Source of the DNA: Romanomermis culicivorax
Lineage: Eukaryota; Nematoda; Enoplea; Mermithida; Mermithidae
DNA length: 64,000 nt
Assembly: GCA_963922205.1 (NCBI GenBank)
Contig: CAWUHX010000351.1
Span: forward strand, 124,001-188,000
Reading direction: 5' to 3'
Shown here: in pieces, positions 6 through 37,000 of the stretch
Layout of the letters: every line of letters begins with the position of its first letter
Position numbering within the stretch: the first letter of the stretch is position 1
Notes under the pieces: model-generated
Database searches by the model: none
Told to the model about the DNA's origin: nothing
Seen by the model: only the letters and a program-made list of their open reading frames with translations
Made by a program: the position numbers and the translations under genes

Positions 6-353
6 ATGTTATATGATTATGCTAAAGATAATCCACACATGGAGTGGTCAGATAAAGGAGAAATAATTCTGAAAGGCACCAAAATAAGTGGAACCAACAT
101 TTTTGATTTGATTTCTGGTGTGGCAAGAGTTGGTCCAAGGCGTCAGCAAGCAATAGGATCAGAATTGTTTGTAAAGAACCTCTTAAAGGAGAATGTGCCT
201 CGAGATCTTTTTGTAAATAAGTCTAGGTTAAATGTTGGAAGTGAAAGCAATGAAACATTTGCTTCCCCCAGTAGCTGGGTAGATGGTAAAAAGATTAAGG
301 TATCCAAAAGCATTACACCAAGGTGTAGATGGTTAGAATTTGGAAAAGTATAA
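6..353 (+). CDS. Polinton/adintovirus block ORF of unknown function
   Basis: The ORF encodes 115 residues. The frame is open to the window edge, so the true start may lie upstream. The protein is basic with no membrane segment. It has a central conserved-looking stretch (LLKENVPRDLF) followed by a Ser/Asn-rich tail. It lies directly before a pVI/pX-like minor capsid gene, and its TAA stop overlaps a TATA-like motif (348-360) that could drive the next gene. From position I infer a structural or virion-core role, but I recognise no catalytic motif. No frame lesion is visible. Confidence 0.5.
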   Translation: MLYDYAKDNPHMEWSDKGEIILKGTKISGTNIFDLISGVARVGPRRQQAIGSELFVKNLLKENVPRDLFVNKSRLNVGSESNETFASPSSWVDGKKIKVSKSITPRCRWLEFGKV

Positions 354-360
354 AAGTTGT
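348..360 (+). promoter_or_regulatory. TATA-like motif before the pVI-like gene
   Basis: GTATAAAAGTTGT lies about 41 bp before the ATG at 390 (TATA to ATG). The identical 13-mer recurs at 748-760 before the major capsid gene. With a start site about 30 bp downstream, the leader would be only 10-15 nt. Confidence 0.5.
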
Positions 361-389: not shown

Positions 390-812
390 ATGAGACAATA
401 CTTTAATCCAGAAGATTATGCAACTTGGCTTCAGTGCTACACTGAACAAGCTGAACAAACTGGCTATGGTTTCAAAGGCTTCAAAGGCACTCCCTATCAG
501 CGTGGAGGAGGTCTAGGCAGCTTCTTTAGATCATTATTCAAAATGACCATTCCTGTTATTAAGTCAGCTGCTGGCCATATTGGTAAGCAAGCACTTTCCA
601 CAGGTGCACATATTGCTGGAGATTTAGCAGAAGGTCAATCTATTAAAGAGTCTCTAGAAGAACATGGCTGAGCAGCACTCTCCAAGTCGGCCCACAGTGC
701 AGGAGACGCCTTGCAGACTGGAAGAGGCATAGGGACTAGACCAAAAGGTATAAAAGTTGTGAAAAATGATATATTCTCAAAGAAAAAGAGAGGGAAACAT
801 GGCTCTAATTGA
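390..812 (+). pseudogene. pVI/pX-like minor capsid (membrane-active) protein, one in-frame stop
   Basis: Residues 1-93 run to an in-frame TGA at 669-671. The same frame then stays open to TGA at 810-812, overlapping the major capsid start. The N-terminal part has a GTPYQRGGGLGSFFRSLF segment followed by an amphipathic Ala/Gly-rich stretch. The part after the stop has a Gly/Arg turn and ends in a Lys-rich tail (DIFSKKKRGK). This layout is known for the pVI/pX-like proteins next to the major capsid gene in Polintons and adintoviruses. In that family the role is in capsid assembly and membrane disruption. The single nonsense codon in an otherwise intact frame suggests a recently decayed copy; readthrough is possible but unsupported. 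Confidence 0.68.
748..760 (+). promoter_or_regulatory. TATA-like motif before the major capsid gene
   Basis: This is an exact copy of the 13-mer at 348-360. It lies about 50 bp before the chosen major capsid ATG (799), which favours that start over the in-frame ATG at 766, since a start site near 779 would exclude 766. Confidence 0.5.
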
Positions 813-1560
813 TACAATTTCTAGTATTGGTACAAAGTCTGAATTGGACTTTTTCACTGTACCTCCCACACAAGTAGTAATTAAACGAGGCTACTGGGAT
901 GAAGTTAACCCCATAAATCCTGTTACAAATGATGGTCGGTACGAATTTTTTATACCTCCAGAGCCTCACATGATTCAGCTTAGCAAAAATTATCTGTACA
1001 TGACCTTGAAAATTACTTACACTGTTCCTGCTGGTAGACCTGCACCAGTAATTGCACCTATCAATCTGATTGGTAAATCATTTTTACGACAAGTGAAGCT
1101 CTTCCTGAATGGTCATCTGATTCATGATAGTGGGGATAAGTATGCCTACAGAGCATTCTTTGAAACTGATTTAAATTTTGGTTTTGATGCTAAAAATAGT
1201 CACTTAAAGTCTTCTTTGTATACTATGGAAGCCGGTCCTAAAATAGATACTTCTGATTGCCAGGGTTTTAAAGACAGGGTAAAGCACTTTGAAAATGGTC
1301 AAACAGTTGAAATAACAGCTCCTCTTCATATTGATCTTCTAATGCAAGATCGATATTTACTCAGCAATACTGAGCTCAAACTGGAATTGATTCTTAATAG
1401 TAATCCATGTGTATTACAGTGTCCAGCTGGTGATGCAGAAAATGCAAAATTGGAAGTTTCCCAGATGAAACTCTTCATCAGGAAAGTTGAAGTTCTCGAC
1501 AGTGTTGGATTGGCTCTAGAAAAAGCAAATAGACACGTCTTTAATGACTATACTGCATGA
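799..1560 (+). CDS. Truncated double-jelly-roll major capsid protein (F54H12.2-like)
   Basis: The ORF encodes 253 residues from ATG 799. An in-frame ATG at 766 would add 11 residues but lies upstream of the predicted transcript start. The sequence matches the hexon-like capsid family known in nematodes as F54H12.2-like: an early PPTQVVIKRGYWDEVNP segment, a middle FLRQVKLFLNGHLI segment, and a late MKLFIRKVEVL segment. Family members are usually well over 400 residues with two jelly rolls. This one stops at TGA 1558-1560 just after the region that normally leads into the second jelly roll. The stop overlaps the protease start (ATGA at 1557-1560). I infer a deletion that removed the C-terminal half, so a normal capsomer could not form. 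Confidence 0.85.
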   Translation: MALIDTISSIGTKSELDFFTVPPTQVVIKRGYWDEVNPINPVTNDGRYEFFIPPEPHMIQLSKNYLYMTLKITYTVPAGRPAPVIAPINLIGKSFLRQVKLFLNGHLIHDSGDKYAYRAFFETDLNFGFDAKNSHLKSSLYTMEAGPKIDTSDCQGFKDRVKHFENGQTVEITAPLHIDLLMQDRYLLSNTELKLELILNSNPCVLQCPAGDAENAKLEVSQMKLFIRKVEVLDSVGLALEKANRHVFNDYTA

Positions 1561-2048
1561 ATATGTCTGAAATCTACATCTTGATGAATAGAGATCAAGC
1601 TCTCAGACAAATCTTCAATGGGGTATTCCCTATAGACTGTTTAACACCTCTTGACACTGTACCCGCAGCATTGGTTGTAAATCTGGACAAGCAGGATGAA
1701 CCTGGTTCACACTGGGTAGCTCTGTTTGTTGATAAAAAACATGCATGTTGTTATTTTGACAGTTATGGCCTGGAACAACCTCAACAGCTCAGGAATTACA
1801 TTAAGACTATATCTACTTCTTACAAGTGCAATACCAAATGTGTTCAACAGTACCTGACTGCTACATGTGGTCAGTTATGTGTATACTTTCTCGTGTGGAT
1901 TGTCAGATGTATAAGAATGAGAGATATTGCTGCTAGTTTGAAACAAGGCTATGCTGATGAATTTGTCACTGGCTTTATCAGTCTCTTTAGAACAAATACT
2001 CCCATATATGATAATGCATTTTTATTTGAACAGCTCAACAGAAAATAA
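1557..2048 (+). CDS. Adenain-like cysteine protease (C5 family)
   Basis: The ORF encodes 163 residues; a second ATG at 1563 is an equally good start. It has the adenain catalytic layout: GSHWVALFVD with the His, YFDSYG with the Asp, and TCGQLCVYFLVW with the preceding Gln and the nucleophilic Cys. In Polintons and adintoviruses this enzyme matures capsid proteins. It follows the capsid gene with a 4-base ATGA overlap. That overlap may be native or may be the scar of the deletion that shortened the capsid gene. All catalytic positions look present, so this is the best preserved gene of the block. It ends in TAA, closely followed by an AATAAAAGTTA motif. Confidence 0.9.
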   Translation: MNMSEIYILMNRDQALRQIFNGVFPIDCLTPLDTVPAALVVNLDKQDEPGSHWVALFVDKKHACCYFDSYGLEQPQQLRNYIKTISTSYKCNTKCVQQYLTATCGQLCVYFLVWIVRCIRMRDIAASLKQGYADEFVTGFISLFRTNTPIYDNAFLFEQLNRK

Positions 2049-2083: not shown

Positions 2084-2854
2084 ATGGATTTTTCACAGTT
2101 TTATGTAACATTATCGAGCAATGCTCAGAGCGATCGGAGTAACTCTGCTTCAAATTTTAGTATCAGGTTGCCTCATAGATTGATTTTGCAAGGTGAATGG
2201 GAATGTGCACTTTGTGAATTCATCTACCCAAATACATGGTTCAATATAACACCTAGTGATAGTGTAATAAAATTTTATGATCTTCAGACCAAAACTAGGC
2301 AATTACTAAAAGTACCTTCTACAAGGTGTGAATCTATAATAGATTTAATTGAAGCTATTCAACAATTCATCAGCTTGTTGAGTGAACAGGAAAAAGTTCC
2401 ATATAATGAGCTTATCCAATTTTCATACAGGAGATTAGCCAGGGCAGTTGTCCTGAAAGTGAACTTGACTGGAATCAAGAGCATAAAATTAAGTGATCCT
2501 TTACTCTACCTGTTGGGCTTTGAGAAATCATAACTAGAAACAACTTCATCTGAAAAATTGAAAATTGCTGCTGCACACCCTGCTGATATGAAGGCTGGTC
2601 TCGAAACTATGTATGTTTTTTGTACCATCATTGAACAACAGATTGCTGGTTATATTTTAGGCCCCCTCCTCCGTATTGTTAATATAGAGGGAGCTTTTGG
2701 TGACATTATAGATAAGATATATATAGCTCCTCACTACTTGCCTGTACTTGTAAAAGATATCGATTCTATCGAAATTTCAATTCGAACAGATCAAGACAAA
2801 CCTATAAAATTTGTCACTGGTAAAACCATTGTGAAGTTACACTTTAGAAAGCGA
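2084..2854 (+). pseudogene. Penton-like minor capsid protein, one in-frame stop
   Basis: The ATG at 2084 (MDFSQFYVTLSSNAQSD) is the only good start; a TTG further upstream is not plausible in a eukaryote. The frame is interrupted by TAA at 2531-2533 and continues unchanged to about 2854. The first part has the family hallmark of FYVTL, then RLPHRLILQGEWECAL and a YPNTWFNI motif. The second part has a LLRIVNIEG segment, an APHYLPV segment and ends in KTIVKLHFRKR, which is where penton proteins of Polintons usually end. The family forms capsid vertices as a single jelly roll. The frame then runs without a stop or Met into a TBP-like domain, which is unusual. Confidence 0.82.
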
Positions 2855-3376
2855 AGTTTATTCAAAAAAGGCAAGTACAAAACATTACTGTCACAGCTGA
2901 ACTTGGCTGTCGACTCAATTTGGACTCACTTGTTAAAAAACTATACTGACTATGGGAAAATCCAGGTCACAATTTGGCACCTTGGTGATCCTAAATGTTG
3001 TCTACTATTGTATGAAAATGGCAAGGTTGTATGTGTGAGTATTAAGGCAACTCAGCAGGCTGTGAAAAGTATAGATTATGCTACAAAAATACTTCTCAAA
3101 CATGGCTATCGGCCAAGACCTAGGAAATTTAGAATGTGAAATGTTGTCAGGTCATACACCCTAGATCACTGTATAAATGATGAAGAATTCTATAACACTC
3201 ATAAGGGTCAATGTGATTATTCTCCTGAATTATTTCCTGCACTCAAATATACAATCAACAAGCAGGGCTCATGTGCATTGATTTTCCATAATCGCAAAAT
3301 TATTATTACAGGTGCCAAAACCTATAATGAACTACAAAAAAACTTCAAAGAGTTACTCGTCAGTTTTCAAAGTTGA
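2855..3376 (+). pseudogene. TATA-binding-protein-like domain pair, one in-frame stop
   Basis: The frame is that of the penton and continues past TGA 3137-3139 to TGA 3374-3376. It shows both halves of the TBP saddle. Half one has a basic strand region, then CCLLLYENGKVVCVSIKAT and SIDYATKILLKHGY. Half two has NVVRSYTL, then YSPELFPALKY, CALIFHNRKIIITGAK and a final helix. These align in order with the known TBP patterns ALIFSSGKMVCTGAK, ARIIQKLGF, YEPELFPGLIY and GKVVLTGAK. TBP binds TATA boxes to nucleate transcription. Large DNA viruses are known to encode TBP-like factors; I do not know of one in Polintons. No Met separates it from the penton, so it may be a natural fusion or a deletion product. 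The stop falls in the linker between the halves. A captured host TBP is possible, but it is too diverged for a recent one. Confidence 0.75.
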
Positions 3377-3419: not shown

Positions 3420-3427
3420 TATAAATA
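3420..3427 (+). promoter_or_regulatory. TATA-like motif before the small Cys/His ORF
   Basis: TATAAATA lies about 43 bp before the ATG at 3463, the same spacing as seen for the other genes of the block. Confidence 0.4.
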
Positions 3428-3462
3428 TATCAAGTCAACAGGTGAAACATTCATTCTCTAAA

Positions 3463-3642
3463 ATGGAGCCTTGCAACTTATGTGGGAAAACTCCTGTGCA
3501 TTCTGTGCATTATGCTGTGTGCAAATATGTTCAGGGAGGTAGATACAGAGAACTGGGTGTTGATCCTCCACCAGTGAAAAGAATGAAAAATCCGATGAAG
3601 AAAGAGGCCACTTGGGTCCACAACTATACCAGAAAAAAGTAA
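3463..3642 (+). CDS. Small Cys/His-rich basic protein, possible zinc binder
   Basis: The ORF encodes 59 residues from the ATG in AAAATGG; a GTG further upstream is not a likely eukaryotic start. The N-terminus has CNLCGKTPVHSVHYAVC, a CxxC-H-H-C pattern that could bind one zinc. The C-terminus is basic (PPPVKRMKNPMKKEA). It is the last gene visible in the Polinton-like block. Function is unknown; a nucleic-acid-binding virion protein or a transcription cofactor is possible. I do not recognise the family. Confidence 0.45.
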   Translation: MEPCNLCGKTPVHSVHYAVCKYVQGGRYRELGVDPPPVKRMKNPMKKEATWVHNYTRKK

Positions 3643-5626: not shown

Positions 5627-5956
5627 TCGTTGAGTCATTGTTTCTAGAATATTCTAGAAAGTTTCATGCATTTTTATGAAATCCTTGTACAATAAGAATT
5701 GCTATAAAAACAAAAAAAGTTAGTAAGAAAAACTAAGGAATAGTTTGTAAGGAAAAACTAAGAAATAGAAAAGGAGTGTTAATAAAAGAGTTTGTATCTA
5801 GCAGTAAGCAAATGATATGGTATATATATATATATAGAGTATATATTAGAATAAACAAAAATTTTGTTTTAATTAAATAAGTTTTTAAAGTTTAGTGGCT
5901 ATGAATAGAGATGGTAGGTGCGGTGGTCATTGTTGTATATTTGCATATTGATAGAT

Positions 5957-6738
<782 letters not shown>

Positions 6739-6743
6739 GAGAT

Positions 6744-7056
6744 GTGGCGAACATTTCTCTCTGTGATTCTGAATCCCGACAAGAAAAGGTAATCGAAAAG
6801 CATTACTACTACCTGATGAACAACTCACAGTCTGTACAGACTCAGATAACTTCTCCGCAACCATCACAACAAGTTTTGCCATCAGAAACCAAAACGGTGT
6901 TTAACCCACCTAAACCTTTAGTTCTGATGAAGCCAACAACTAGTACAGCAAACATGCTTAAACCAACAGAAAAGTCGAAAGCTACAAATTTTTTTGTTGC
7001 TCCCGGAATCATAGATTTTACAATCGAAAAACCTACTGAACCGTCGGTCCCAAGAT
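6744..7056 (+). pseudogene. Element C: gag C-terminal/linker remnant
   Basis: An open stretch of about 100 residues, rich in Ser, Gln, Thr and Pro. By position it corresponds to the low-complexity linker between the gag zinc knuckle and protease in element D. No catalytic motif is present. It starts at the edge of the GATA array, so its N-terminus is lost. Confidence 0.5.
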
Positions 7057-7127
7057 AAAGCGTATGTCGAATCAAAGAATGTTCACAAAAAGGCATCAAA
7101 CTTCTGAGCTAATAGGCTATTACACGA

Positions 7128-7425
7128 GCATTCCACATCGATGCTGAAATCGGAAAAGCTAAAACAAAAGCCTTAATCAATACTGGTGCCCAATGTTCAG
7201 TCATTTCCTCATGTCTAGCTCAACACTCTTTGAAGATTGACTATGATACGTTAGAAACATCTGCGCAGATAAAAGTAGCCGATGGTGCAATCTTCGATGC
7301 CAGAGGTCCCATAATCTTCAAAATTAATTCATCTTTCGGAACGCATCTAGTACGATGCTGGATTCTACCTACCGCAGAAGAGCAATGCCTCCTTGGAACC
7401 GATTTCCTAGTACATCCGAGCGTAT
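7128..7425 (+). pseudogene. Element C: retroviral-type aspartic protease, active site altered
   Basis: The region reads through TKALINTGAQCSVISS and CLLGTDFLVHP, the two hallmark segments of retrotransposon proteases, and aligns with [11 protein letters not shown] and [11 protein letters not shown] of element D. The catalytic Asp of D(T/S)G is Asn here, which would inactivate the enzyme. A TGA follows at 7425-7427. Confidence 0.75.
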
Positions 7426-7427
7426 GA

Positions 7428-8083
7428 GCTGTAATAAACTTTAGTGAAAACTTCATCAGAATCCGAGACGTTCAACAAGAACTAAACCTAGTTTTGAAAC
7501 CGATTGAAAAAGCGCCCTATGATGAAGTATTTTCAAATACTTCTACGGGACAAAGGCAAACACAAATCGTGAAAATCGACAGATCGCTACCAATTTTGAG
7601 TATCTCATCATGCTACGTAGAACCAAATTGTCAAATGTGGGTTGACGGGAAAATCTTCCCTTTCACAAAAGAAAATTTCAAAAGCATCATAGTTCAACCC
7701 GTGAACTTCGGAAAAGGAAACTGTGAATATCCAATCGAATTGGCGATAATCAACATAATCGAAGGCAAATGTCCACTATTATTCCTCAATATTAGTGTCA
7801 ATGGCATCCATCTGCAACCTAACCAGCTTATTGCTGAGGTAAAATTCAGACTTGAAGAATCGAAAATGACAGTTGTGTCGCTAAGCAATCACGAAGATGA
7901 TTATGAACCAGCTACGTTGGTTAAAGATCAGTCGACTATGTGGGAAGAAGAAAAACTTTGACAAGCTCTCAAAAAAATGACCGAAAAGTCGAATATTAAT
8001 AATGAAGATAGAAAGATCACTATCGAAGTCTTCAAGCAATATTGCGATGTTTTTAGTCTCACTTTTCTCCATTTCGACCTTTA
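7428..8083 (+). pseudogene. Element C: pol linker between protease and reverse transcriptase
   Basis: An open frame of about 155 residues from 7494, then a stop at 7959-7961 and a short continuation ending in YCDVFSL. This aligns with the [10 protein letters not shown] segment that precedes reverse transcriptase in element D. The reverse transcriptase itself is missing. Confidence 0.55.
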
Positions 8084-8089
8084 AGAGGG

Positions 8090-8518
8090 TATGAACCCAG
8101 AATCACCAGTCTAATGTTACCGCTAAACTATGATGCATATCAATATATCTTCACATGAGCGCAACTAACATTATATAAAGAAGTTTCGGAAAACTTGAAA
8201 AATGCGTCGGAATCACATAAACGATACTTGGACAGGAAAGCCAAAGAACAGGTATACGATCTAAACGATCTAATTCTGTTAATTAATAACAAAAAAGCGA
8301 CTAAAATCGACGAAGACTACATCGGACCCTTCCTAGTGGTCGAAAATTCCGAAATTTCGAAAAACGTCATAACAGTCGATAGTTTAGATTGTCCCGGACA
8401 AACTCAGAAAGTCTCACTTTCTCGCGTAAAGCCATACATGCCTCGTATGGCATCGGCAATCCTAGAATCGGAAGATAGTGGTCCTCCGAGACTTGGAAAA
8501 GAGTTGAAAAATTTGTAA
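8090..8518 (+). pseudogene. Element C: integrase C-terminal fragment
   Basis: It opens with MLPLNYDAYQYIF, matching [13 protein letters not shown] of the element D integrase. It continues through SHKRYLDRKAKEQVYDLND and ends in VSLSRVKPY, the usual DNA-binding tail of Ty3-type integrases. The zinc-binding and DDE catalytic parts are missing because of the deletion upstream. An early stop interrupts the frame before 8195. Confidence 0.75.
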
Positions 8519-9059
8519 AAATTTCGTCATATTTCGACTAACATTGATTTCTAATTTTGCTAATAAACTATTATAGTTATTTAATCATATTTTAATCGTA
8601 AACGAAAGCGATGAGCATAAAATTTTGGTGTTTAAAACGCACTCAACACGCTAATTCAGATTCTGTGTGGAATGAGTGAAAGAAATGTGTGTGATATTGT
8701 TGCGTAGTTTTGTGTATATTCACGATCATTTCAAAGAAATCGACCTTCCCTAAGAAGTAGCATGGAAAATTAGAAAATAAAACAAAAAGCGCGCACCGTA
8801 GATATATCTTAATCCGGTCCCACCCAATCTGAACTTTACACTTTTCGTCATGTGCATGAAAAATTTGAAGTCATGGTTAACAACCTTCCACTTTACACCT
8901 TCATTTTTATAGCAAGATTTTTTCAATCTTAATTCTTAATTTGATAAATCACAAAGCCTACCAAAGGGTCGTATTGTATCAAATTCTCGATACAAGTCAA
9001 ATCGAAGTTGATAGAAAGAAAGGATGACTACTGAGTCAGAGGTGACAACGTCCCAAAGT

Positions 9060-9186
9060 TCGGGCATCACATCATCATTGATAAACCCGCCACCCATTTT
9101 TCGAAAATTTTTCAACATCCAAGACTGATACATCTCGTATCAACGAAAGCAGCATCACCAAGATGACCGATTCTTTTTCGCGGATG
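9060..9186 (+). pseudogene. Element C: first exon of spliced ORF2
   Basis: The frame reads YQRKQHHQDDRFFFAD and meets a GTAAGT donor at 9187. It aligns position by position with [16 protein letters not shown] before the GTAAGC donor of element D at 36531, including the intron phase. One stop (TGA, 9127-9129) lies inside. The start codon is uncertain. Confidence 0.6.
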
Positions 9187-9402
9187 GTAAGTTCTGCACT
9201 GCCAATTAGACTAAAGTCTGAAAAAATTAGAAACTCCGGGTTTCTCTTCCCCTGGGAAGAATGTATATCAATCCATCGATATATCATATTTGGGTCGCAG
9301 TAACTTCGCTAGAAGATTTGCACGCCGCGATTCGAAAAATTGACGTTTCCATGTGAAACTGAATCTATCAGAATTTAATCCAAATTTTATGATATTTTTT
9401 AG

Positions 9403-10650
9403 AGTATAACATAAAGCAAATGATAAGAATCACGGAATTCGAACAATGGTTTGAGACAGTGTATGCAAGGCCAATGAATGTCCTTCCCCATGCCCACATA
9501 TGTTGAAAGTGGCGACTTGAAAAACACATTGGCGATGCATAGGAAACCGAACTTCCGAAGCCACATTTTGGTCAGCTTTGATGTCAAAAAGATTTCCACC
9601 AATCAACTGTATATCCACAAAAAAACCAAACTGGATATACAGAATCAAAATGCGACTAACGTCGCTAGACTCGTCCAGCTCGGGTTCCCGACTGGACATA
9701 TAATCATGTTTGACGCTCTCCCAGCTACTTCTGTCGACTGGACTGCATTTTACGAATTGGTATCGGCCCCAAAAACCATTGTCATCAGTTTCAATCAGGC
9801 CGACAATTGGAAGTGCCTAAAAGATATGCACGGCTGAGATTTTTATTCACCCGACGCCCCTAAAATGCACTCTGCAGTGCTCGTGCCCAGTATTTTGGTG
9901 GATATCCAAATCATACTGGAAAATATCGAACAATCGCCGGAAAAATGGGAGAGAGCACGTCTCATAGGCCTCTGCCCGGAAAATAAAAAATTGAAGGGGA
10001 TAGTTGCCGATATGTTCGCCTTAGACATGGAATGATTCGCGTTAGATGTGGAACGATTCACGTTATATTTCCCACAAGCGAACGATAGAATCGCCCTAGC
10101 AGGCAAGCCCGATGAGCAAGTTATAAACTACTCGATCCTAGACGCGTACTATCCGATCATAATATTTTTGGTGTACAGACGCTACGGTTTCGTGAACAGC
10201 ATCTACGATAATATTCAAATTTTTCCGCATGATTTTTTGCCGCCCAAGTACATACACACGGCGACACAAAATCTGTATGATAATGCGAGCGTCGATTATG
10301 ATGGCGGCGAAAAAGGGGCCTTTGGCGTCATAGATCCAACGCTATCGAAAAGTCTTATCCATGCGATAATGCGCGACAAAATTTTGGCGCTGAACCAAGT
10401 CATTTTCTATGATTATAAGGTTCCCAACTTGCGCTATTGTCTGTATAATCACCCTAATGTGGAACACACCACTAAACCGCTAGGACAAAAGATGCATCCT
10501 CCAAAACTACCCTCGATAAAGGGTAGCAAACAGAATATGTCGACCTTGACCGATGAGGAAATAATCGAACTGTACGATAACGCTACTATATGTGCGGAAG
10601 TAATCGACAAAGCTCTACGCTCTAATGATATAACTCATATTCATCACGTG
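9403..10650 (+). pseudogene. Element C: DEDDy-type 3'-5' exonuclease domain, decayed
   Basis: After the TTTTTTAG acceptor (intron 9187-9402) the frame reads YNIKQMIRITEFEQWFET, matching [11 protein letters not shown] and EQWFAT of element D. A frameshift near 9475 moves to the next frame. Motif I is LVSFDVKK, with the Glu of DxE replaced by Lys. Motif II is degenerate (SFNQADNW). Motif III is intact (NYSILDAYY, YxxxD). A segment GLCPENKKLKGIV matches the conserved [13 protein letters not shown] helix. Stops at 9836-9838 and near 10033 break the frame. In the RNase D/WRN family such domains degrade nucleic acid from the 3' end with two metal ions; this copy is inactive. Confidence 0.75.
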
Positions 10651-13224
10651 ATTGGTGCCCCAATGTCGCTCTTGTTCATATCGGAAATAGACCAAAATAT
10701 GGTCATGAGCGACAATATGAAACAAACAAATTTCAATTTAGTCGTAAACGATCCGTTCTCGATGTACGGTCCGCCCGAAACCTGGCCGATATACAAAATC
10801 AAATCTGATCATCAAATTTCGGAAATGCTGGCTTTAGCGCCGCTATATTCAGTTCCCAATCACAACAAATGGATGAACGCCATCAGAGGAACCATTCTGC
10901 TAGCCCTTCACATTTGCTCACCACACTCTGAAACGGAATTGTGAGCTATAATTAAAAATGAAATCCCCAAATTATTGTCGAAAAGCGATAACATCGAAAT
11001 CGACCTTATTTGTGAACAAAATTGGATTAAACGCGACAGTATGTTTGAACTAGAATTGACCGAATGGGTTAGTCGAATACCCGTAGTCAAAAAAATTTGC
11101 AATGACAATAAACGACCAGTATACACGAATCGATACTTTATGAGACCGATAGTATTTCGAAACGACAGTTTTCCTGTCTCTAGCAAAACCGATCTAGTAA
11201 CAAAAAAGAAGTATAAGGAGAACCCTTATTACTATTTTTCTTATAACTCCACGATTTTGACATCTCGAAAATGTGAACATCTCATTTGCTTTCGGCCTAA
11301 CAGCATTTTGATGATGAGTTCGAATTGCCAGTATTCCTGGAAGCAATGTTGATGGGCGAAAGTCCGACAAAAACGCCTACTCAGGCTCCTACACAAGCTT
11401 TTACAGATACTGAGCTCGATAAAGAAACGGCAATGGCCATCAAATCACTAATAAATGATATCGCTGAGGAATCGTTCACGATAAAGACCGAAGTTCCTAC
11501 CCAAACTGATATAATTCAGATGGAAAGTGACGAAGATGACGTATCGCAAACTGATACTACTGCACGGACTACAACAGCTAAGACAACGTCTTCGTTATCT
11601 CCGTTATCCAAAAATCTATCGTATAGTCAATATGAGTTAGATTGGCCTGAAGGAGAGCAGCTTGGCGCGAAAGCTGCATTGATGAAAACCATTTCGATGA
11701 AAAATGTTTCGCGAATAGACAATGATGATGACAACTCGAAAATGTTTCCACCACAAATAAATCTGACGTGACGTAAAATACCGACATCACATGAAATGGA
11801 GACCTCTACACCTGTCAGCACAGACAGTAGAACCCCTGTTTTAGAGATAAAAGAAGATCGACTATGCGACGAACATGGACAGCCAATTGTTCACATCTGA
11901 GCTTATCAATTTTTGTTATTCCGAAGATGAAACGGGATCAATAAGCAATTACGAACAATTCAGGACTATCTGGAATCTGACCCAGAAGACCCGAATTATG
12001 TTCCACTGCCGAAGAAACGTCACCATTCGCGGGAAGAAACGCAAAGCAAAAAACGAAAAGAAACTGTATCAAAAACGGGAGAATGACGTTCATGGTCTAC
12101 TACACGAAAAGAAGACGATGACTATGATAGCTCCAAAAATTGACACGGCGAATATGCGTCGAATGAACGCCTGAAGAAATATCACCAGGATCGATACTAT
12201 TCCAAGTATCAACGTGAGCACCCGAGCGATTCGAAAGATCGGCAAAAGAAATTAGAATGGGCAAACACTCTCAAATGAGATCAATTGCAAAAGGAGGAGA
12301 TAGAGAGTCAACAGCCTCCGACAGCTGACTCCAAAAGAATGATCGATGAACCGACTACATTGCAACAAGCTGAAATGGCTAGTAATCAACAACAACAGCG
12401 ACAAATCATTCAAGAATATAAAATACCGCATCGGCGATTTGACAAACAACAAACCCCACCCGAAAAACGGTACCCCAACATACCTACTGCACCTATTACA
12501 GCCCAAATAAAACCACGAACAACCAATGAAATGATTATCATTAATTATTTCAATCGCACTCATTTAAAATTCGATCGGACAATTCTACAACAAGCCACCG
12601 CGGCTTCGCAACAAATAGCTCAGGATTTCCTTGACTATTTTCATTCATGATATTTGCATCGCGACCCGCACTGCATGGAAGAACTCACCGCAGTTCTTCT
12701 AAGTTGGATGTGCGACTACTACAAATATTATGGTGCCGAAAACACAATCGTTATAACACAGCTCACGCTGTTTCTCTTCCATGTTCGACAAGCATATGAC
12801 TACAAGACCACGGATCACTCATATTTGATGGCCTGGCGTTACATTTTGCAATGCTTAACCGATACAAGAGCACCAAATTACCCGGCTACCGAAGAAAGAA
12901 AGAGATATTCATCGCGAATATCAGATGGAGATGAATAGAAAAGCTGAAGAAAAGAAACGAAAAGATACAATGATGCCGACAAAACCGGCTGTACCTCCTA
13001 AGTATCAGATGAAACCAGCACCAATCATTGACCTGGCCACAACCACGACCATGCAACCACCGGTTGTTGGAATACGAACATCATTGGGAGCGGCGCAACG
13101 AGCTCTTGCCCCACGAGCGCCAACTACGAGTCACAGACTGCAGATGCCTCCACCCAGCATTCTAAAAGCGAGCAAAACTCTGACCAAAGTCGTGCCGAAA
13201 GGTCGCAGGTTTCCGCCAAAATGA
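10651..13224 (+). pseudogene. Element C: ORF3-like region, decayed
   Basis: It continues in frame from the exonuclease domain with no stop until TGA 10942-10944, so ORF2 and ORF3 were one reading frame here. Matching landmarks with element D ORF3 are a [10 protein letters not shown] segment versus [10 protein letters not shown], and KKKYKENPYYYFSYN versus [17 protein letters not shown]. Then come an acidic Thr/Ser-rich middle, a Gln-rich stretch, a helical block near 12654-12900 and a Pro/Ala/Arg-rich basic tail ending at 13224. Several stops and frameshifts are present. The function of ORF3 is unknown. Confidence 0.6.
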
Positions 13225-28000: not shown

Positions 28001-31000
28001 CTGAAGATTGTGTTTAGGCCTTTCTTGTTTTATTGCTGACGTCTTTGGACCTAAGCAGAGATCTAAACATGACATGCAGTCTCGTCATACAAAAAATTAT
28101 CGTGCATGTAAACAAACCTATTTCAGCGATTTTTGCAGATAGGGTTTCTGACCAAGGGGAATTCAATGGATATGGTAACTTTACACAAAAAAAGGTATAC
28201 TGAATGTAAACAAATGTATTTCAACGATCTTTTGGGTTGAGGGGCTTTTTATTATTTGGAATTCAACCGATATGGTCACTTTACACTTTGTTCACGACGT
28301 TTTTTAAATACTATGCAGTTTACACATTTTTCACTTTTATCCAGTGAGAATTCGTAGCTTTAAGATTGTTTTTATTGTTTCTTAGATATGAAGATGGCGA
28401 AAGATAAAACTTCAATGTGTTTTAATGAAGGTTTTCATGCATGGTCAAGGCTCCCTAAATAAGGGTGGACTAGTTTATTAGAAAATGCCACGATGCTACA
28501 GAAAAAGAAGAATATACTTGCTTGGATAGTTTCCGAGCTAGAAAAAGGCGTAGACTAGGTTTTTGGAAACTTGGATGAGGGTTTAAATCCAGTTTTGTAA
28601 TATTGGATTTTCATTCTTTCTCATTAAAAATTTTTTCATGTATTTGAAAAAGTATAGTCTGCAGCTGAGTGCATGAACTTATTTTCCAACCATACATGTG
28701 CAGCAGGGTGTTGAGGTGGTCTCAGGTGCACGTGTTCAGCTTCCGGCGTCGGTGCGCAGGCGGTTGGACGCGGCGAAAAGTGGCCGAAAAGAAGTGATAA
28801 TTTGCATAGATGTATGCTGCCACTGTTTCGCGGTTTTTCTGTTTGTTGGTCAGTGTGAGATTTATTTGTTTTTATGGAGCGACGCCGCCATCGCCTTTCT
28901 ACAATATTTTTGTTTATTATCGTTATTTTGGCGTCGCCACTAGCTACCCAATACAACTTGAACCCGTAAGTGTATTGTTCTGTGAGCGTAGGGGAAGGAG
29001 TTTATAAGGTTAGGAGTGGAGACTTGGGTAGGAGCTCCTGAGGTACGTGTCAAGGTGTTCTGCCTGAAGTTTGGTGAAAGTTCTGGCGAGTATCTGGTGA
29101 AACGTCTGGGAGAGTTTTGTGTTTATTGTTGTTGTTAGCCTGTGGTCAGAACTGTTGCATAGTGTTGACCCCACAGCTGCCTAACAAGTGGTGGACTCTT
29201 AACGCCTCTCACGACGGATAACCGGAGAACCACCAGAAAAATAACTAAACCTCCTGGGTTTTATTTGCAGTCACATACTGGAAAAGTTAAAAAGATGAGT
29301 ATTCCGGTAGGGAAAACTTTGAGGACTCCTCCTAGGTCACACGAACCTAGTGTTTCGAATCTCGACTCTGCTGAAGAACACGCAGCGGTAGAAAAGGTTC
29401 AAGCACAGGCGCCTGAGACTGAAGGAAGGAGAGAGAGTAGAAATGGCGAAGTGGCAAAAATGGAAGAGGAGTTGAGGAAGAGTAGTTTTGAGATGGCTAG
29501 GTTAGCCGAGAGTGAAACTACGGTAAGTGGTAGTGTCAGAGGTCAGCAGACCTTTGAAAAGGAGAGACCGACGTCGCCCTCGAAGTTGGTCCATCCGATG
29601 GCGGAAACGCTGGAGGAGATTAGACGGAAATCGAAACCGGCGTGGAGGTCGAACATGATGGACATGAATTACGACGAGTATTACGAGGACGCGCCGGCCG
29701 ATTTATACGACGACAAATATTCGAGGCGATACGAGCCCGAAATTAGGAATTGGAGTCGACAAGAGGATCCAAGGGATCGAGTCGATCCCAAGGATTTACG
29801 ATTTAATGCGCTGGAGAAAAAGGTCGAATTGTTGATCAAAGTAATCGAAAGCGCGCAGGTCAAGGAAAAGGAAACGGAGGATGATCAACGGAGGAAGATA
29901 GGTGAGTCTTCTTACCTTGAGAATAGAGTTGAGAGAGTAAGTGAACCTAAGAGAGAGGTTCATTCGGAAGTTTATGTAAGGTCTCAAGAGGACAGAGACA
30001 AATATTCGGCCAGAGATAGAGGTTGAACTGAGGAGCCGCAGAGTTCGAGGAATGCTGAACAAGCACAATCGAATGCCTACGGTTACTCAGAGAATAGGAG
30101 GTCGAGGGAAAGGAAGGTGACTATTTGCGATGAATCGTCCCAGGGAGAGGATAGGTTTTCCCGTCCTACTCCTTGGAGAGATACCGCAAATAGAGCTGAC
30201 CTTAGCCCTGAGAGGAGGAGAAAGAGGAGGTCAAAGAGTAGAAAGAGATCTCACAGGTCAAGAGCTAGGAGTAGACATTACTCAGATAGTGATAATAGCA
30301 GTTCATCTACGTCGAACTCTAGCTCAAGTGTGGAAGTTGATGTGAGAGATGTGGTAAAGGCCTTGAAGCATAGACCTTTACATGATAGTATAAAGCCGAC
30401 GGAGGCTTTGAAATTTTTTACTGATCTGGAAAGTGAATTTCTGGAGAATACGGCTGATAAAGTGAAAAAGGAGTGTTTGAGAAGGTTGTCTCAGAACACG
30501 GCGAGGAGGATAGCGAGAACATCCTCAAGTTATACAGAAGCGCGGAGAAATATTTTAAAGTATCTCGCGCCGACTTATGATTTGACGATGCTCAAAAGAG
30601 AGTTGTTTAATATGAAACAGGAAGAAGGCGAATCAGCCTTGGAGTTTTTAAAGAGATTGAGTAATCATGTGGATCTGGTCTATGCAGATCAGAGTGATCA
30701 AGTAAGGCAAGAGAATATTATTAATGCCTTCATTTATAAGAGTAGTCCGTTATATCAGACGGAGTTGCAGGATGTATTGCCATCGATGAAAACTTGGCAA
30801 GACCTTGCATACGCCGTAACTCAGATTGATAAGAAATATAAGAATGTGTTTACTACTTTTGGAGCCAAGGATAAACCGATTGTAGTGAATCAAGTTGTAG
30901 CTACGGAGGAGATGTGCCCGGAAATTGCTTTTGTAGGGAATGCTCCGTATGGAAGTACTAAAAAGTATAACCAGACGAAGTCAAGACCACAAAATCAGTT

Positions 31001-34000
31001 GCAAAAGGCAGTGGAAGAGGAGAGAAGTGAGGAGAATGCTGAAGAGATGCAACATGGTCTGTCGCCTTGTGATGTCAAAAAGTCTAATGAGGAGCAGGCC
31101 AAGGAGTCTTTTTTAGCTATTCTCTCAAAGGAGTGGCTACAATTGGTTCAAAAGGTGGATAAATTACAAGTTACTCAGAGTGAAGCCTTAAAAGAGTTGA
31201 CTACTGTGAAGGATGCGTCCGCTGAAAAGCAGAAGCAGTTGAAGCAGCAGAGACCCTACTGTATATATCATAAGAATAATACTCATGCTACGGAGGAGTG
31301 TAAGACATTAGCATACCGGCGTCAGCAACAGCAACGCGGTGGATTTAACCGTGGCATGTCAAATCAGTATTATGGTGGTGATAGGAATGCTTCATTTAGA
31401 GGAAGTTTTAGAGGTAGAGGTGGACCTCAATTCGGATTTAGAGGAAGAGGAAGAGGTGCCTATTATGTAGGATTTCCCGAAGAAGATCAAATGTACGGGT
31501 ATGACCCAGAGTTTGAGAGATACAGGGAATTCTGCAGACTTAGGGAACAAGGCATCCAGTTGCAGAGGCAGCCTCAGTTGATGTTACCTGCATCAACTAG
31601 TCAACCGGCTATTCAGGCTAGTACCATCCAGGATCAGTCTGGATCATTTGTTTCGAACCAGTCGCAACCTAGTTCGCATAACGTAATGGTGACAAGCCGT
31701 ACGGATGTGGATGATGAAAGCGAACAGAGTAGAAACAAATCTTCTAGTTTGGTTCTCGGAAGTATTATTCACCTGGATAAGGTGACACCTCTAGAGAAAG
31801 TAAAGGAAAGAGATTTGGCTCATGTGAAATATGGAAGGAAAGCAACGGATGTAGAGAGAAGGTTGTTGGAAAATTATCCGAAAACGGTTCCATTCTATAT
31901 AAATGTGGTTATTAAAGAAACGGCTACCAGAGCTTTAATCGATACAGGAGCTCAGTGTACGGTCATGTCTTCTAAGCTCCTGAAAAGGGCATTAGACGTT
32001 GATTATACAGTGTACCCTCGTATCCTTAAAGTGACTGTAGCTGATGGAAAAATTGTGCATGCCTATGGGTATGTACCAGTTTGTATGAAGACTGAATTCG
32101 GAAGTTTTCCAGTCAATGCTATAGTGTTGCCAGATGCAGGTGAGGACCTGATCTTGGGCACAGATTTTTTGGCACACCCAGATTTAGGTGTGGTGATTGA
32201 TTTTAAAAGGAATGCCATGACGATACAGGGCATTGAAAGAAAGATTGACGTAGTTCAAGTTCCTTCTGTAACTACTGTGCAAAGGGTAATGGAAGAAGTA
32301 ACTAAAGTCAGTGTGGCGTCGACTGATTGCATAAATCAAATTGTTTATCCAAAAGTTTGTCTGCTAAAGACAACTGTTGCAATTGTTGCATGTAGTAAAA
32401 CCTACATTCCATATGGAACAGATGTTTTGATGAAGGCAAAACTTTGGGATCAACATGGAGATGCCACGTTGAACGGAATTATCGTCGAATCAAAGGATTC
32501 TGAAAGGAAGTTCAGAATGGAGAAAGCGGTTGTAGACGGATCACAAGAGGAGTTTGTAGTACTAATCTCCAATACCACAGGTTCTGGTTGTTGGTTTGAG
32601 AGAGATCAAATCATTGGCTATACAGAATCTATGCTTATTGAAGATGATGATACGTACAAAAAGGTGAAAGGAATGAAAAAGATAAAGGAGGAAAAGGAAT
32701 ATCAGACCTGTATGGTAAAGGAAGGAATGCCTGCATTATCAAAAGCTGATTCTGTAGAGTTCTATACTTCACTATGCAAGATGATATCGAAGGCGAAAAT
32801 TTTGGAAGAGAAGAAAACGGAAGCTATAGAATCTTTGTTGAAGTACAGAGATGTCTTTAGCTTGCCTGGTGATCCGGCTACTACAACCCCAGCTCTGACG
32901 TGCAAGATAGATACAGGAGATGCAAGACCTGTAGCAAAGAGATATTACAGAGCTTCAATTAATAGTCGGCCAGGAGTAAGGCGACACATAAAGGAGATGT
33001 TGGATCAAGGAGTGATCGAGCCCTCGAAGTCACCGTGGGCTGCACCCTTGTTCTTAGTTGGAAAGAAAGATGGAACTACGAGACCAGTAGTTGATTTTAG
33101 AGGTATAAACGAAGTGACCAAGGATGATAAATATCCCATCCCGAGAATGGATGACTATTTAGATTGCCTTGGAAGAGCCAAGTTTTATACGACTCTAGAT
33201 TTGAAGTCGGGATATTGGCAGGTCCCGATGGAGGAGGAGAGCAAGGAGAAAATGGCTTTTATATGCCAAGAGGGCTTGTTTCAGTTTAAAGTGATGCCGT
33301 TTGGGTTGAAGAATGCACCTGCTGAATTCCAAAGGATGATGGAGAGAATCCTCGGGGATTTGGTGTGGAAAATTTGCCTAGTGTACATAGATGATATTAT
33401 CATCTTCTCGAATACGTTCGAGGAACACTTAGAGAATTTGAACTTGGTGCTAGAAGCGTTGAGGAAGGCGAAGTTGACTCTTAAGCTGGAGAAATGTGAA
33501 TTTCTTCCCGAGAAGGTGCACTTTTTAGGACACATCTTGGACGCGAACGGAATTTCTCCGGATCCTAAGAAGGTCAAGGCGATAACGGAATTTGCATTCC
33601 CGGATTCTGTTAAGAAAATGCAAAGATTCCTAGGTATGCTACAATGGTGTAAGAAATTTATACCGGACCTAGCAGCACTAGCTGAACCCTTGTACAAATT
33701 AACAGGCAAGAAGGGAACATGGAATGTGACGGAGTTGCATTACACAACTTTTGAGAAGCTCAAAGTAGCATTGAGCTCAGTACCTTTCTTAAGACATCCA
33801 ATTTTAGATGGATCTGCGCGATTCATTCTTCAAACGGATGCCAGTGGAATTGCATTGGGAGCAGTGTTATGTCAAGAGACTGACTCGGAACGTTGGGTGA
33901 TTGCCTACAATAGTTGGATATTGCGGGCAGAAGAAAGGAAATGGTGCGCCACCGAAAGGGAATGCTTAGCTGTGGTTTACGGCCTTAAAATTTATAAACA

Positions 34001-37000
34001 TTATCTTTTGGGCCAAAAGGTCAGGATTCAAACTGACCACAAACCATTATTATCAATGAGGGTCAATACACAGACTAATGACAAACTCAAGAGGTGATAC
34101 GCATTCATTTGCCAGTTTAATCACAAGTTGGAGTACGTGCCTGGCAGACAGAATGCCATGGCAGATTTTCTCTCCAGGAAGGAGGAACCGGATGAACAGA
34201 AAGAGAAGTTGCCACCAAAATGGGAGCTTATCTTTCAGAAAGAAGAAGTGAAATCTCTAACTGAAGATGAAGTCCTTAACCAAAACCACAAAGTTTTAGT
34301 GAAACAACTTCGGGAACTCAGAGGAGATGAAGTGGATGAGGCTGTAGGAGTCTTCACTCCGGTGAAGATGGCCACAGCTTCAGTGGCTTCAAAGTATGGT
34401 GTTAGTGATGAGACTCGACTTAATATTTCTCCAGAATTTGATAATTATCAAATGCCTGAGAAATATGAAATTGAGGCAGTAGTCACTAGACAAATGGCAA
34501 AAAACTTGCAGCAGGAGGAAAAAGGACATCCTCCTGGGCAAGGAAAATCTAAAGAAGAGGTGAAGAGAATTTTTGAACCAAAGGAAAAGGAGTTTGAAGA
34601 AGCCCCAGAGATTGAAGATGATAGACCGAAAGGGCTTATCTCAAACGCCTTGATGGCTCAGTTGCAAGGAAAGGATAAAGATTTAAAAGTGATCTTCGAG
34701 AAACTAGGTGCTAATAGTAGCACCAAGTCTCAAAGTAACTTTTGTATCGATCAAGGGATACTATATAGAGAGACTTTTGGCGAGGCAGAGGATCAAGTTG
34801 TTGTGCCCTCTGTTCTCAAAAAAGTTGTCCTGCATCAGTATCATGGAGCAGTGATGATGACGCATCAAGGGTTTAAGAGAACCCTTACTATTATCAAAAA
34901 GCGGTTCTGGTGGCCGAGCATCGAGAAGGATGTTCGGAGCTGGATCAGCTTTTGTCCGATATGTCAAATTGCGACTCCAGGAAAGGCTACAATACCGCCA
35001 TTAAATCCAATTATTCCTAGAGGACCATTTGACATAGTCTCTGTAGATATTGTGGGAATATCTCCCATGAGCGAGAAAAGACCGTATGTGATAGTATTTC
35101 AAGATTACTTTACAAAATGGGTGGAAGCAGAAATGATCCTGGATCAATCTGCTGTAACCATTGTGGACAGTTTTCTTCGAAATATTGTGTTCAGGCATGG
35201 AACCCCGGTGAAATTGTTGAGTGATAATGGTTCATGCTTTACAGCTGATTTGATGACGTCAGTGTGTAAATTGTTGGAGTGTCAGAAGATTTTCACAACT
35301 GCCTACCATCCACAAGGAAATGGAATGGTTGAAAAGTTTAACCAAACCTTGATCAAGCAGTTGCGAAAGGTTGCTATAGAGGATTCAGATAAGTGGGACA
35401 GATATTTGCAATCTGTCGTTTTTGCATATAATGCCACACCTCATACCTCAACGAAATGTTCTCCATTTGCCTTATTGAGAGGTCATGAGGCTAATTTTGG
35501 CATTAGTATTGGTGTTGCTAGAAACATAGTTCTGCCAATGAACTATGACCCTTATAAGCATATACTAACCGAAAGTTTAGTAGAAACTTATGAAGTCATT
35601 TCAGAGAATATCAGGAAGGCTGCGGAGAGCAGTAAAAAGTTTTTTGACCGTAAAGCAAAAGCTCATGATTATTCCGTCAATGATTGGGTTTTGCTGAAAG
35701 TCGATAAACAGAAAAAACTGGGTCTGCCGTGGCAAGGACCGTATGTTGTTACTGATAATAGGAGATTATCAGAGAATGTGCTTGAAATCGCTCACTGGAG
35801 AGAGCTGCTGAAAAAGCAGGTGGTATCCGTGAGCAGGTTAAAGCACTTTCGCTACGAGACCGGCAGATGGCTGCAGTCTAACGACGTGTCATCTAAGGAC
35901 ACGCAGTTTACTGTAGATTCAAAAATCAGTAATTATAAACTGCCGTAGCGCGTAGCGCTGTGTTTCGCGTGTGTATGTGCGTGTGAATACCCCCCCCTAT
36001 TTTTCGCCCCCAATCTTGTATTTAAGTACAAATTGTATTTAATTGTATTTATTTATGTATTTATCGCGTATTTATCGTGTATTTTTAATTTTCCCTCGCG
36101 TAAATCTAAAAATTTCTCAAAATTTTTGGTAAAAAACCACTCTTCGCAAAAACCTAAAATTTTAAAACTTTTTTCGCGGCCTAAATTTTAAATTTCCCCG
36201 AGTCCGATTAATTTTTTCGGAGGAAATAGTTAGTTGTTGCCCCCCAATTCTGTGAATATTGGAAGAATTGGGAAAACCGCTGAGTTTTAGAGTGAAAATA
36301 GACAAAAAGTAGCGAAAGCGGAAAATTTGTCGATTTTTCAGCTCTTATAAAAATTATCAAAAAATTTTCGAAAATTGATAGCGCAGAATTCGAAGAATTT
36401 GAGAAAGAAGCGGTCGAGATGTCCAGGCCCCCCAATGGACGCCGGACAAAGCAATACTTGGTCACGGACCCGCACGTGACCTACGGTCAGCCGCAGGTGC
36501 GGCAAAATAATCGGTATTTTCTAGTCGATGGTAAGCGACCTAAGTTTTTAAACTTAGTTAATTTAAAAATTATTTGGGCAAGGCAGGATGTTATAGCCCA
36601 CGGGTGTCTAGATGAAGGCCTAGACAATTGTAAAAATTTTAGTGGGAACAAAATTGTTCTGTCAGCTTGAAAAAGTGTGGCAAAGCTGCCTGTAGCGCAA
36701 AATTTGGACTTTTTGCGAAACTACATCATTCCTCTACACACATAGCGAGTTGAATAAATTCGTCTATGTGATGGGGAAGAAGTGGAGCATAGCAACTAGT
36801 CGACTAGGGGTAGATAATTTCAAAATTTATTTAATTCCATCTTAATTTACTTTTCTACGAATTTCCACATTTTGGGTAAATTACTAAATATATTTTAAAT
36901 TTCTTCTTGGAAATTCTTAATTTGTTGGGTTGATAGGCCATTTTGGGCGTTGGATCGAGACGGCATGCAGTCCAATGATGGAAGACGCAGGTGGTCTGTG

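Follow-up and report, generated by a model that had tools for sequence, protein, structure and literature searches.

The question raised by this locus is what a TBP-like sequence is doing inside the capsid gene block of a Polinton in the nematode Romanomermis culicivorax, given that TBP is required by all three nuclear RNA polymerases and is not known to be carried by any transposon. We analysed a stretch of 64,000 nucleotides (the window; C351:124001-188000) and searched its genes against the R. culicivorax assembly (359,112,060 bases, 595 contigs); C and L numbers below denote contigs and loci, and clades A to E are groups of intact TBPs defined further on. We put at roughly 60% the probability that TBP is a standard component of these Polintons which would bind the element's own TATA promoters and recruit host TFIIB and RNA polymerase II. 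The v2 assembly has been described as 359.1 Mb in 595 scaffolds with 6.5 Mb of polintons, and TATA, TBP, TFIID and capsid are all absent as terms from the main text of that report in the form available (PMC10879605). The window's element contains the following features.

6..353, forward strand: conserved Polinton ORF, 3' part, upstream of the pVI-like gene
349..359, forward strand: TATA box TATAAAAGTTG before the pVI-like gene
390..671, forward strand: small virion-like protein, presumably pVI-like (homologues in L042, L052 and L065)
749..759, forward strand: TATA box TATAAAAGTTG before the major capsid gene
799..1560, forward strand: presumed major capsid protein (MCP) remnant, shortened by a large deletion in its interior (ORF of 264 aa versus an open frame of 448 aa in L039)
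1557..2048, forward strand: adenain-type cysteine protease (PF00770 at 1557-2045, 23.2 bits, cut-off 21.3)
2084..2863, forward strand: presumed penton (minor capsid) gene, with TAA at 2531-2533 and its own stop missing
2803..2813, forward strand: TATA-like box within the penton 3' end
2872..2943, forward strand: TBP N-terminus (start of repeat 1), off-frame relative to the rest
2903..3136, forward strand: TBP repeat 1, main frame (PF00352 over 2855-3136, E 9e-7, 29.1 bits)
3137..3139, forward strand: in-frame TGA between the repeats
3140..3376, forward strand: TBP repeat 2 and stop codon (PF00352 over 3140-3373, E 4.8e-14, 52.4 bits)
3420..3429, forward strand: TATA box TATAAATATA at -43 of the next small ORF
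3463..3642, forward strand: small Cys/His-rich ORF (C-x2-C-x5-H-x2-H-x3-C), present after TBP in many clade A-C copies
4278, forward strand: probable right end of the element, where the homology of six other copies stops

The initial annotation had recognised two TBP repeats in order within one frame, and both motifs are indeed present in frame from 2855. Each half exceeds the 22.9-bit PF00352 cut-off, far beyond chance, and the two halves also match solved TBPs (best 4.8e-8 and 2.4e-14, respectively). However, while the TBP-family repeats are real, the same annotation had held them to be split only by the TGA, and this is wrong: the first ~24 TBP residues (QVQNITVTAELGCRLNLDSLVKKL) are encoded at 2872-2943 in a different frame from the remainder, which places a frameshift near the 5' end. 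With this frameshift, an absent start codon and an in-frame stop, the TBP/capsid block of the window is a dead, decayed copy. Its repeat 2 shares 91-92% identity with the closest other genomic copies. The reading frame is continuous with the penton ORF because of this decay; a penton-TBP fusion was considered and rejected, as L002 and L004 have separate penton and TBP ORFs, and in representative clade A-C upstream sequences the penton stop lies just ahead of the TBP start.

As regards the identity of the carriers, pieces upstream of one clade D TBP (L075) and one clade A TBP (L076) each encode an rve integrase with a chromodomain (PF00665 2.2e-14 and PF00385 7.8e-8 in L075; 2.9e-13 and 1.4e-8 in L076), along with further conserved ORFs, a pVI-like gene and MCP; the integrase was seen in these two pieces, the left part of the window's own clade A element lying outside the window. 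A packaging ATPase of the A32/FtsK kind is present in clade A (Pox_A32, 29.7 bits, cut-off 22.8) and in clade D, where the Pox_A32 score of 18.6 bits falls below that cut-off and PF00910 scores 27.9 bits (cut-off 21.5). Among the best 80 of 999 candidates scored with PF03175, a PolB lies ~1.7 kb downstream of TBP on the same strand at C97, C354, C161 and C1, all of clade D type, with an open frame of 1326 aa at C97. Like Polintons, Mavericks and adintoviruses, these elements have an integrase with a chromodomain, an ATPase, an adenain-type protease and a presumed penton, with PolB beside TBP in clade D. An rve integrase with a C-terminal chromodomain is described as an adintovirus hallmark in the available text of a preprint (PMC11071296), and unlike the elements as surveyed there and in PMC11071308, whose main texts in that form lack the terms TATA, TBP and TFIID, those studied here bear a TBP gene. 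Most of the other listed PF03175 matches fall in multi-copy ORFs of ~350-430 aa, for example at C203:504127-504570; the few compared by eye lie away from TBP places and may represent another element family.

Several of the neighbouring genes are named on looser grounds. No Pfam or PDB sequence match was obtained for the product that we take to be MCP, and the presumed penton gave one profile match (E 0.22) and six homologues with uninformative names; MCP, penton, TBP and the small ORF all went unassigned in PHROGs, and the small Cys/His-rich ORF also lacked a Pfam family. By eye, the MMHTN... ORF of L076 is the same protein as that at 6..353, pVI-like homologues also occur in L075 and L076, and the Cys/His pattern resembles one near the clade D integrase (L075 4516-4869). 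At the right side, the homology of five other copies ends at ~4232 (query ends 905 for 4278 and 859 for 4232, counted from 3374; 33 loci matched), and exact copies of the element's end motif occur in 4 of 76 loci, each time downstream of TBP. Beyond the element, the window contains a (GATA)n array at 5950-6743 (~199 copies, 99% match) and, by eye, a Gypsy-type gag-pol region at 30117-35948 within 29265-41536 with a decayed relative at ~7000-13224; the gag-pol region is followed by an ORF at 37295-38626 with a weak 3'-5' exonuclease match (PF01612, 17.5 bits, below the cut-off of 23.6) and then by a 968-aa ORF at 38630-41536. The SL1 leader of other nematodes was absent at up to one mismatch.

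A broken TBP would be expected if a host TBP had been captured once and carried passively, or if the window held, next to a Polinton, a pseudogene of the host TBP, and the distribution of copies makes us regard this as extremely improbable. Searching the whole genome with repeat 2 gave at least 150 places, corresponding to at least 146 distinct loci, and at least 174 when places found only with a microsporidian TBP query were added and the host TBP left out. Many of these are fragments or stop-bearing; however, 74 loci yielded distinct intact ORFs for both genes, 42 for TBP (166-195 aa) and 30 for penton, such that the intact version sought at the same position is present in many copies within this one species. 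In L002, for instance, a 260-aa penton ORF is followed 2 bases after its stop by a 172-aa TBP ORF and then by a 66-aa Cys/His-rich ORF. Grouped by identity and locus, the intact TBPs form clades A (26), B (5), C (3), D (4) and E (4, a loose group), and these counts follow the choice of loci fetched, with many copies related and non-independent.

The gene order is equally recurrent. Using the best 150 of 151 penton matches for coordinates, a same-strand penton lies within 3 kb upstream at 124 of the 150 listed TBP places, at exactly 288 bp in 62, and is missing from the list upstream at 26; conversely, TBP lies within 3 kb downstream of 131 of the 150 listed penton places and is absent at 19. 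A penton match was found in 45 of the 48 loci chosen by TBP match (L001-L048; none in L018, L024 and L025), and MCP, protease and penton precede TBP in this order in many loci. Of a further 26 loci (L049-L074, in which L049 and L073 are host TBP), 16 match penton, protease, MCP or pVI-like genes, whereas such structural-gene matches are absent in 8 of the 24 non-host loci (L057, L058, L061, L063, L066, L070, L071 and L072). In the group E loci L055, L056 and L074, a distant penton (~25% identity) is located downstream of TBP. By synteny and intact copies, a TBP-family gene is a regular part of the Polinton capsid block, where its place is fixed in clades A-D. By eye, opposite-strand ORFs in L057, L061 and L063 resemble the clade D PolB-side ORF, although those tested matched no Pfam family, and the L072 TBP sits amid retrotransposon-like ORFs. 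We also observed greater divergence among clade A copies in TBP than in the 3' end of penton, a pattern resembling exchange of right ends between elements: the median pairwise identity was 0.89-0.93 for the initial 480 bases of TBP and 0.96-0.97 for the 360 bases preceding them (24 loci, in ungapped windows, the outer of which are for that reason disturbed by indels).

The host has its own TBP gene at C95, distinct from the Polinton copies; its coding pieces lie in different frames (introns), it is presumably nematode-like, and it is the only listed place with 72% identity to the microsporidian TBP. A 17-row tree placed host and human TBP together (99/99) and contained a branch (support 76/70, recovered in 78% of bootstrap trees) with all of its Polinton TBPs to one side. 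A host TBP pseudogene or direct copy was rejected in view of the multi-copy loci, the distinct C95 gene and this tree, and passive carriage is likewise at odds with at least 146 loci, 42 intact ORFs, fixed synteny and the purifying selection described below. Clade A TBPs share 31-36% identity with those of clades D and E, and pentons ~25% between clades A and E. At this branch support one and two acquisitions are indistinguishable, and a single gain of TBP by Polintons is possible. We tentatively entertain, at somewhat less than even odds, a scenario in which one such gain pre-dated the split of the lineages, with the elements since then having kept their own set of TATAAAAG promoters and a private RNA polymerase II factor.

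We next turn to the protein itself. Seven intact TBPs from clades A-E matched PF00352 with E values of 1.3e-32 to 2.4e-44, and a clade A TBP aligned with human TBP across 165 aa (2.5e-27). Like cellular TBP, the Polinton proteins have two repeats, the intercalating Phe residues, the central Asn residues and a mostly kept PELFP stirrup. Among the 42 ORFs, using what we take to be yeast TBP positions, the contact residues N159 and F207 are kept in 42, F99 and F190 in 41, and N69 and T215 in 40, while the residues facing TFIIB include E188 (37/42), L189 (41/42) and E186 (only 4/42). Unlike cellular TBP, most Polinton clades have no N-terminal domain (L057 has a short extension), V71 and T124 are replaced by Thr and Val, respectively, in 37 of 42 ORFs each, position F116 holds Tyr more often than Phe (34 versus 8), and E186 is mostly lost. 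At the compared positions repeat 2 is better conserved than repeat 1, E186 excepted.

Median NG86 dN/dS, computed on ORFs selected as intact among related, non-independent copies, came to 0.18 for the 325 pairs of clade A; it was 0.13 for A-C (78 pairs) and B-C (15), 0.23 for B-D (20), 0.28 within C (3) and 0.26 within D (6). Within clade B the median was 0.69 (10 pairs) at a dS of just 0.017, and dS was infinite for A-B, A-D, A-E and several other clade pairs. As judged from these codon comparisons, the ratios show that the predicted Polinton TBP evolves under purifying selection. With regard to the putative saddle fold, models predicted from the window sequence, and from a metagenomic protein (P0007, below), were both weak, with a mean pLDDT of 56-57 (low confidence) for window repeat 2; the first 40 Foldseek rows were all TBP chains or TBP-bearing entries, and no row had E <= 0.001.

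To look for promoters, we searched the 100 nt ahead of each start codon for TATA[AT]A. A box was present before penton in 47 of 52 loci, the exceptions being L001, L044, L055, L056 and L074, before the small ORF in 37 of 38, before TBP in 41 of 57 (in clade A usually at -66, in D-type copies at -72 or -65), before MCP and the pVI-like gene in 3 of 3 each, and before the protease in only 1 of 34. Comparing distinct upstream sequences with shuffle expectations gave 37/40 versus 8.5 for penton, 24/25 versus 5.0 for the small ORF, 27/39 versus 4.3 for TBP, 2/2 versus 0.1 for MCP, 2/2 versus 0.4 for the pVI-like gene and 1/26 versus 6.3 for the protease. In clades B and C the TBP gene has no such box in this interval; in these clades TBP may be expressed via the penton message. 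In the window, the box of its own penton (L001) has been lost, while TATAAAAGTTG occurs exactly before the pVI-like gene and MCP, with 8 matches window-wide at up to one mismatch against a shuffle mean of 3.17 (8 was reached in 2 of 100 shuffles).

In the upstream pieces from a single element each of clades A and D, a box lies 30-70 nt before 11 of 15 gene starts (4/7 in A, 7/8 in D), compared with 5 of 184 other same-strand ATGs (5/93 in A, 0/91 in D) and 4 of 159 on the opposite strand. For many element genes the distance from box to gene is ~35-50 nt and the usual form is TATAAAAG; integrase and ATPase are among the genes so preceded. Counting against a promoter reading, 4 of the 15 gene starts have no box, and as cellular TBP also binds TATA, the boxes alone need no second TBP.

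These observations point to a pathway in which the Polinton TBP would bind the TATA boxes ahead of element genes and bend the DNA in the manner of cellular TBP, host TFIIB and then RNA polymerase II would be recruited, and element genes would be transcribed when the element is active, with or without the service of host TFIID. Host TFIIB is proposed because no element-borne TFIIB was found; PF00382 matched three places in the genome only, which makes an element TFIIB unlikely at the sensitivity of that search. For the first transcription of the TBP gene, host TBP would be a simple answer. The initial annotation had suggested a basal factor carried for late genes, and while an element-encoded basal factor fits the TATA boxes, "late" appears too narrow: boxes stand before integrase and ATPase too, not just before capsid genes, which makes a general role probable.

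The same residues and boxes could also be read as directed at the host, the Polinton TBP mainly competing for TFIIB, TFIIA or TAFs, or occupying promoters, and so lowering host transcription. The largely kept TFIIB-facing stirrup of repeat 2 (E188 and L189) is compatible with this, and the canonical-looking boxes of the element might already be served by host TBP; however, minor-groove residues and fixed-distance boxes maintained across divergent clades better fit promoter use, and we regard a host-directed role as unlikely. Alternatively, the TBP fold may serve a non-transcriptional purpose, for instance by bending DNA during replication or packaging or when an integration site is chosen. TBP bends DNA, and here its gene adjoins penton in the capsid block and PolB in clade D, yet E188 and L189 are largely kept although needless for bending alone, and the boxes at 11 of 15 gene starts also speak against it, such that this explanation seems to us quite improbable. 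Use by the element of its own TBP at its own promoters is the reading we retain.

Virus-encoded TBPs offer a further comparison. TBPs of nimaviruses (wsv303), mirusviruses and megaviruses are described in the available portions of PMC10871703, PMC10132985, PMC12768974 and PMC11464507, and sporadic TBPs in integrated green-algal elements of putative mirusvirus origin in those of PMC10675990. Going by these descriptions, eukaryotic DNA viruses can encode a TBP; the carrier in R. culicivorax is a Polinton, unlike these large viruses of other groups. According to the text available for PMC12529657, KSHV ORF24, one of the TBP mimics of beta- and gammaherpesviruses, substitutes for TBP at viral promoters through a TBP-like domain with use of host Pol II, recognises TATTWAA, contains extra domains and is without the TFIIB-contact residues, whereas the Polinton version consists of the TBP core alone and accompanies TATAAAAG boxes. 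An ORF24-type loss of the TFIIB-contact acidic residues was considered and rejected, E188 being present in 37 of 42 ORFs, though E186 is in 4. A related proposal is that these are integrated adintovirus-like genomes whose TBP is a late-gene factor like the herpesvirus mimic, tied to replicated templates. The 30 distinct intact penton ORFs among 74 loci lend this some weight, as does ORF24 being required for late genes (PMC12529657, available text); however, boxes before integrase and ATPase do not indicate a late-only role, and the mostly TATAAAAG form of the boxes and mostly kept E188 and L189 differ from TATTWAA and ORF24 as described there, so that we hold this proposal to be very unlikely.

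Relatives outside R. culicivorax were few. Among 50,697 phage records the sole match was an annotated TATA-box-binding protein of the archaeal Halorubrum virus HRTV-9 (23.7% identity, E 2e-5). No confirmed relatives were obtained from IMG/VR with TBP repeat 2, penton or MCP as queries, nor from GTDB contigs with MCP. A protein search with the repeat 1 region returned nothing, and one with both repeats returned a single TBP, the metagenomic P0007; this 281-aa protein has precomputed TBP and PF11858 (DUF3378) domains and a Cys-rich tail, and its best PDB matches are archaeal TBPs. Within the open-licence literature in the form available, we found no report of a TBP in a Polinton, including in PMC12220804, PMC11244446, PMC10989877, PMC10879605, PMC10675990, PMC10132985, PMC11071296, PMC11071308, PMC10871703, PMC11464507 and PMC12768974, and other nematode Polinton or adintovirus studies may mention one.

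Should the proposed role hold, some animal Polintons would bring a general transcription factor in addition to their replication and capsid genes. This would bear on how Polintons are expressed and silenced, and on the source of the TBPs of nimaviruses and mirusviruses and of the herpesvirus mimics. Furthermore, the Polinton TBPs would provide natural variants for separating TATA recognition from TFIIB contact.
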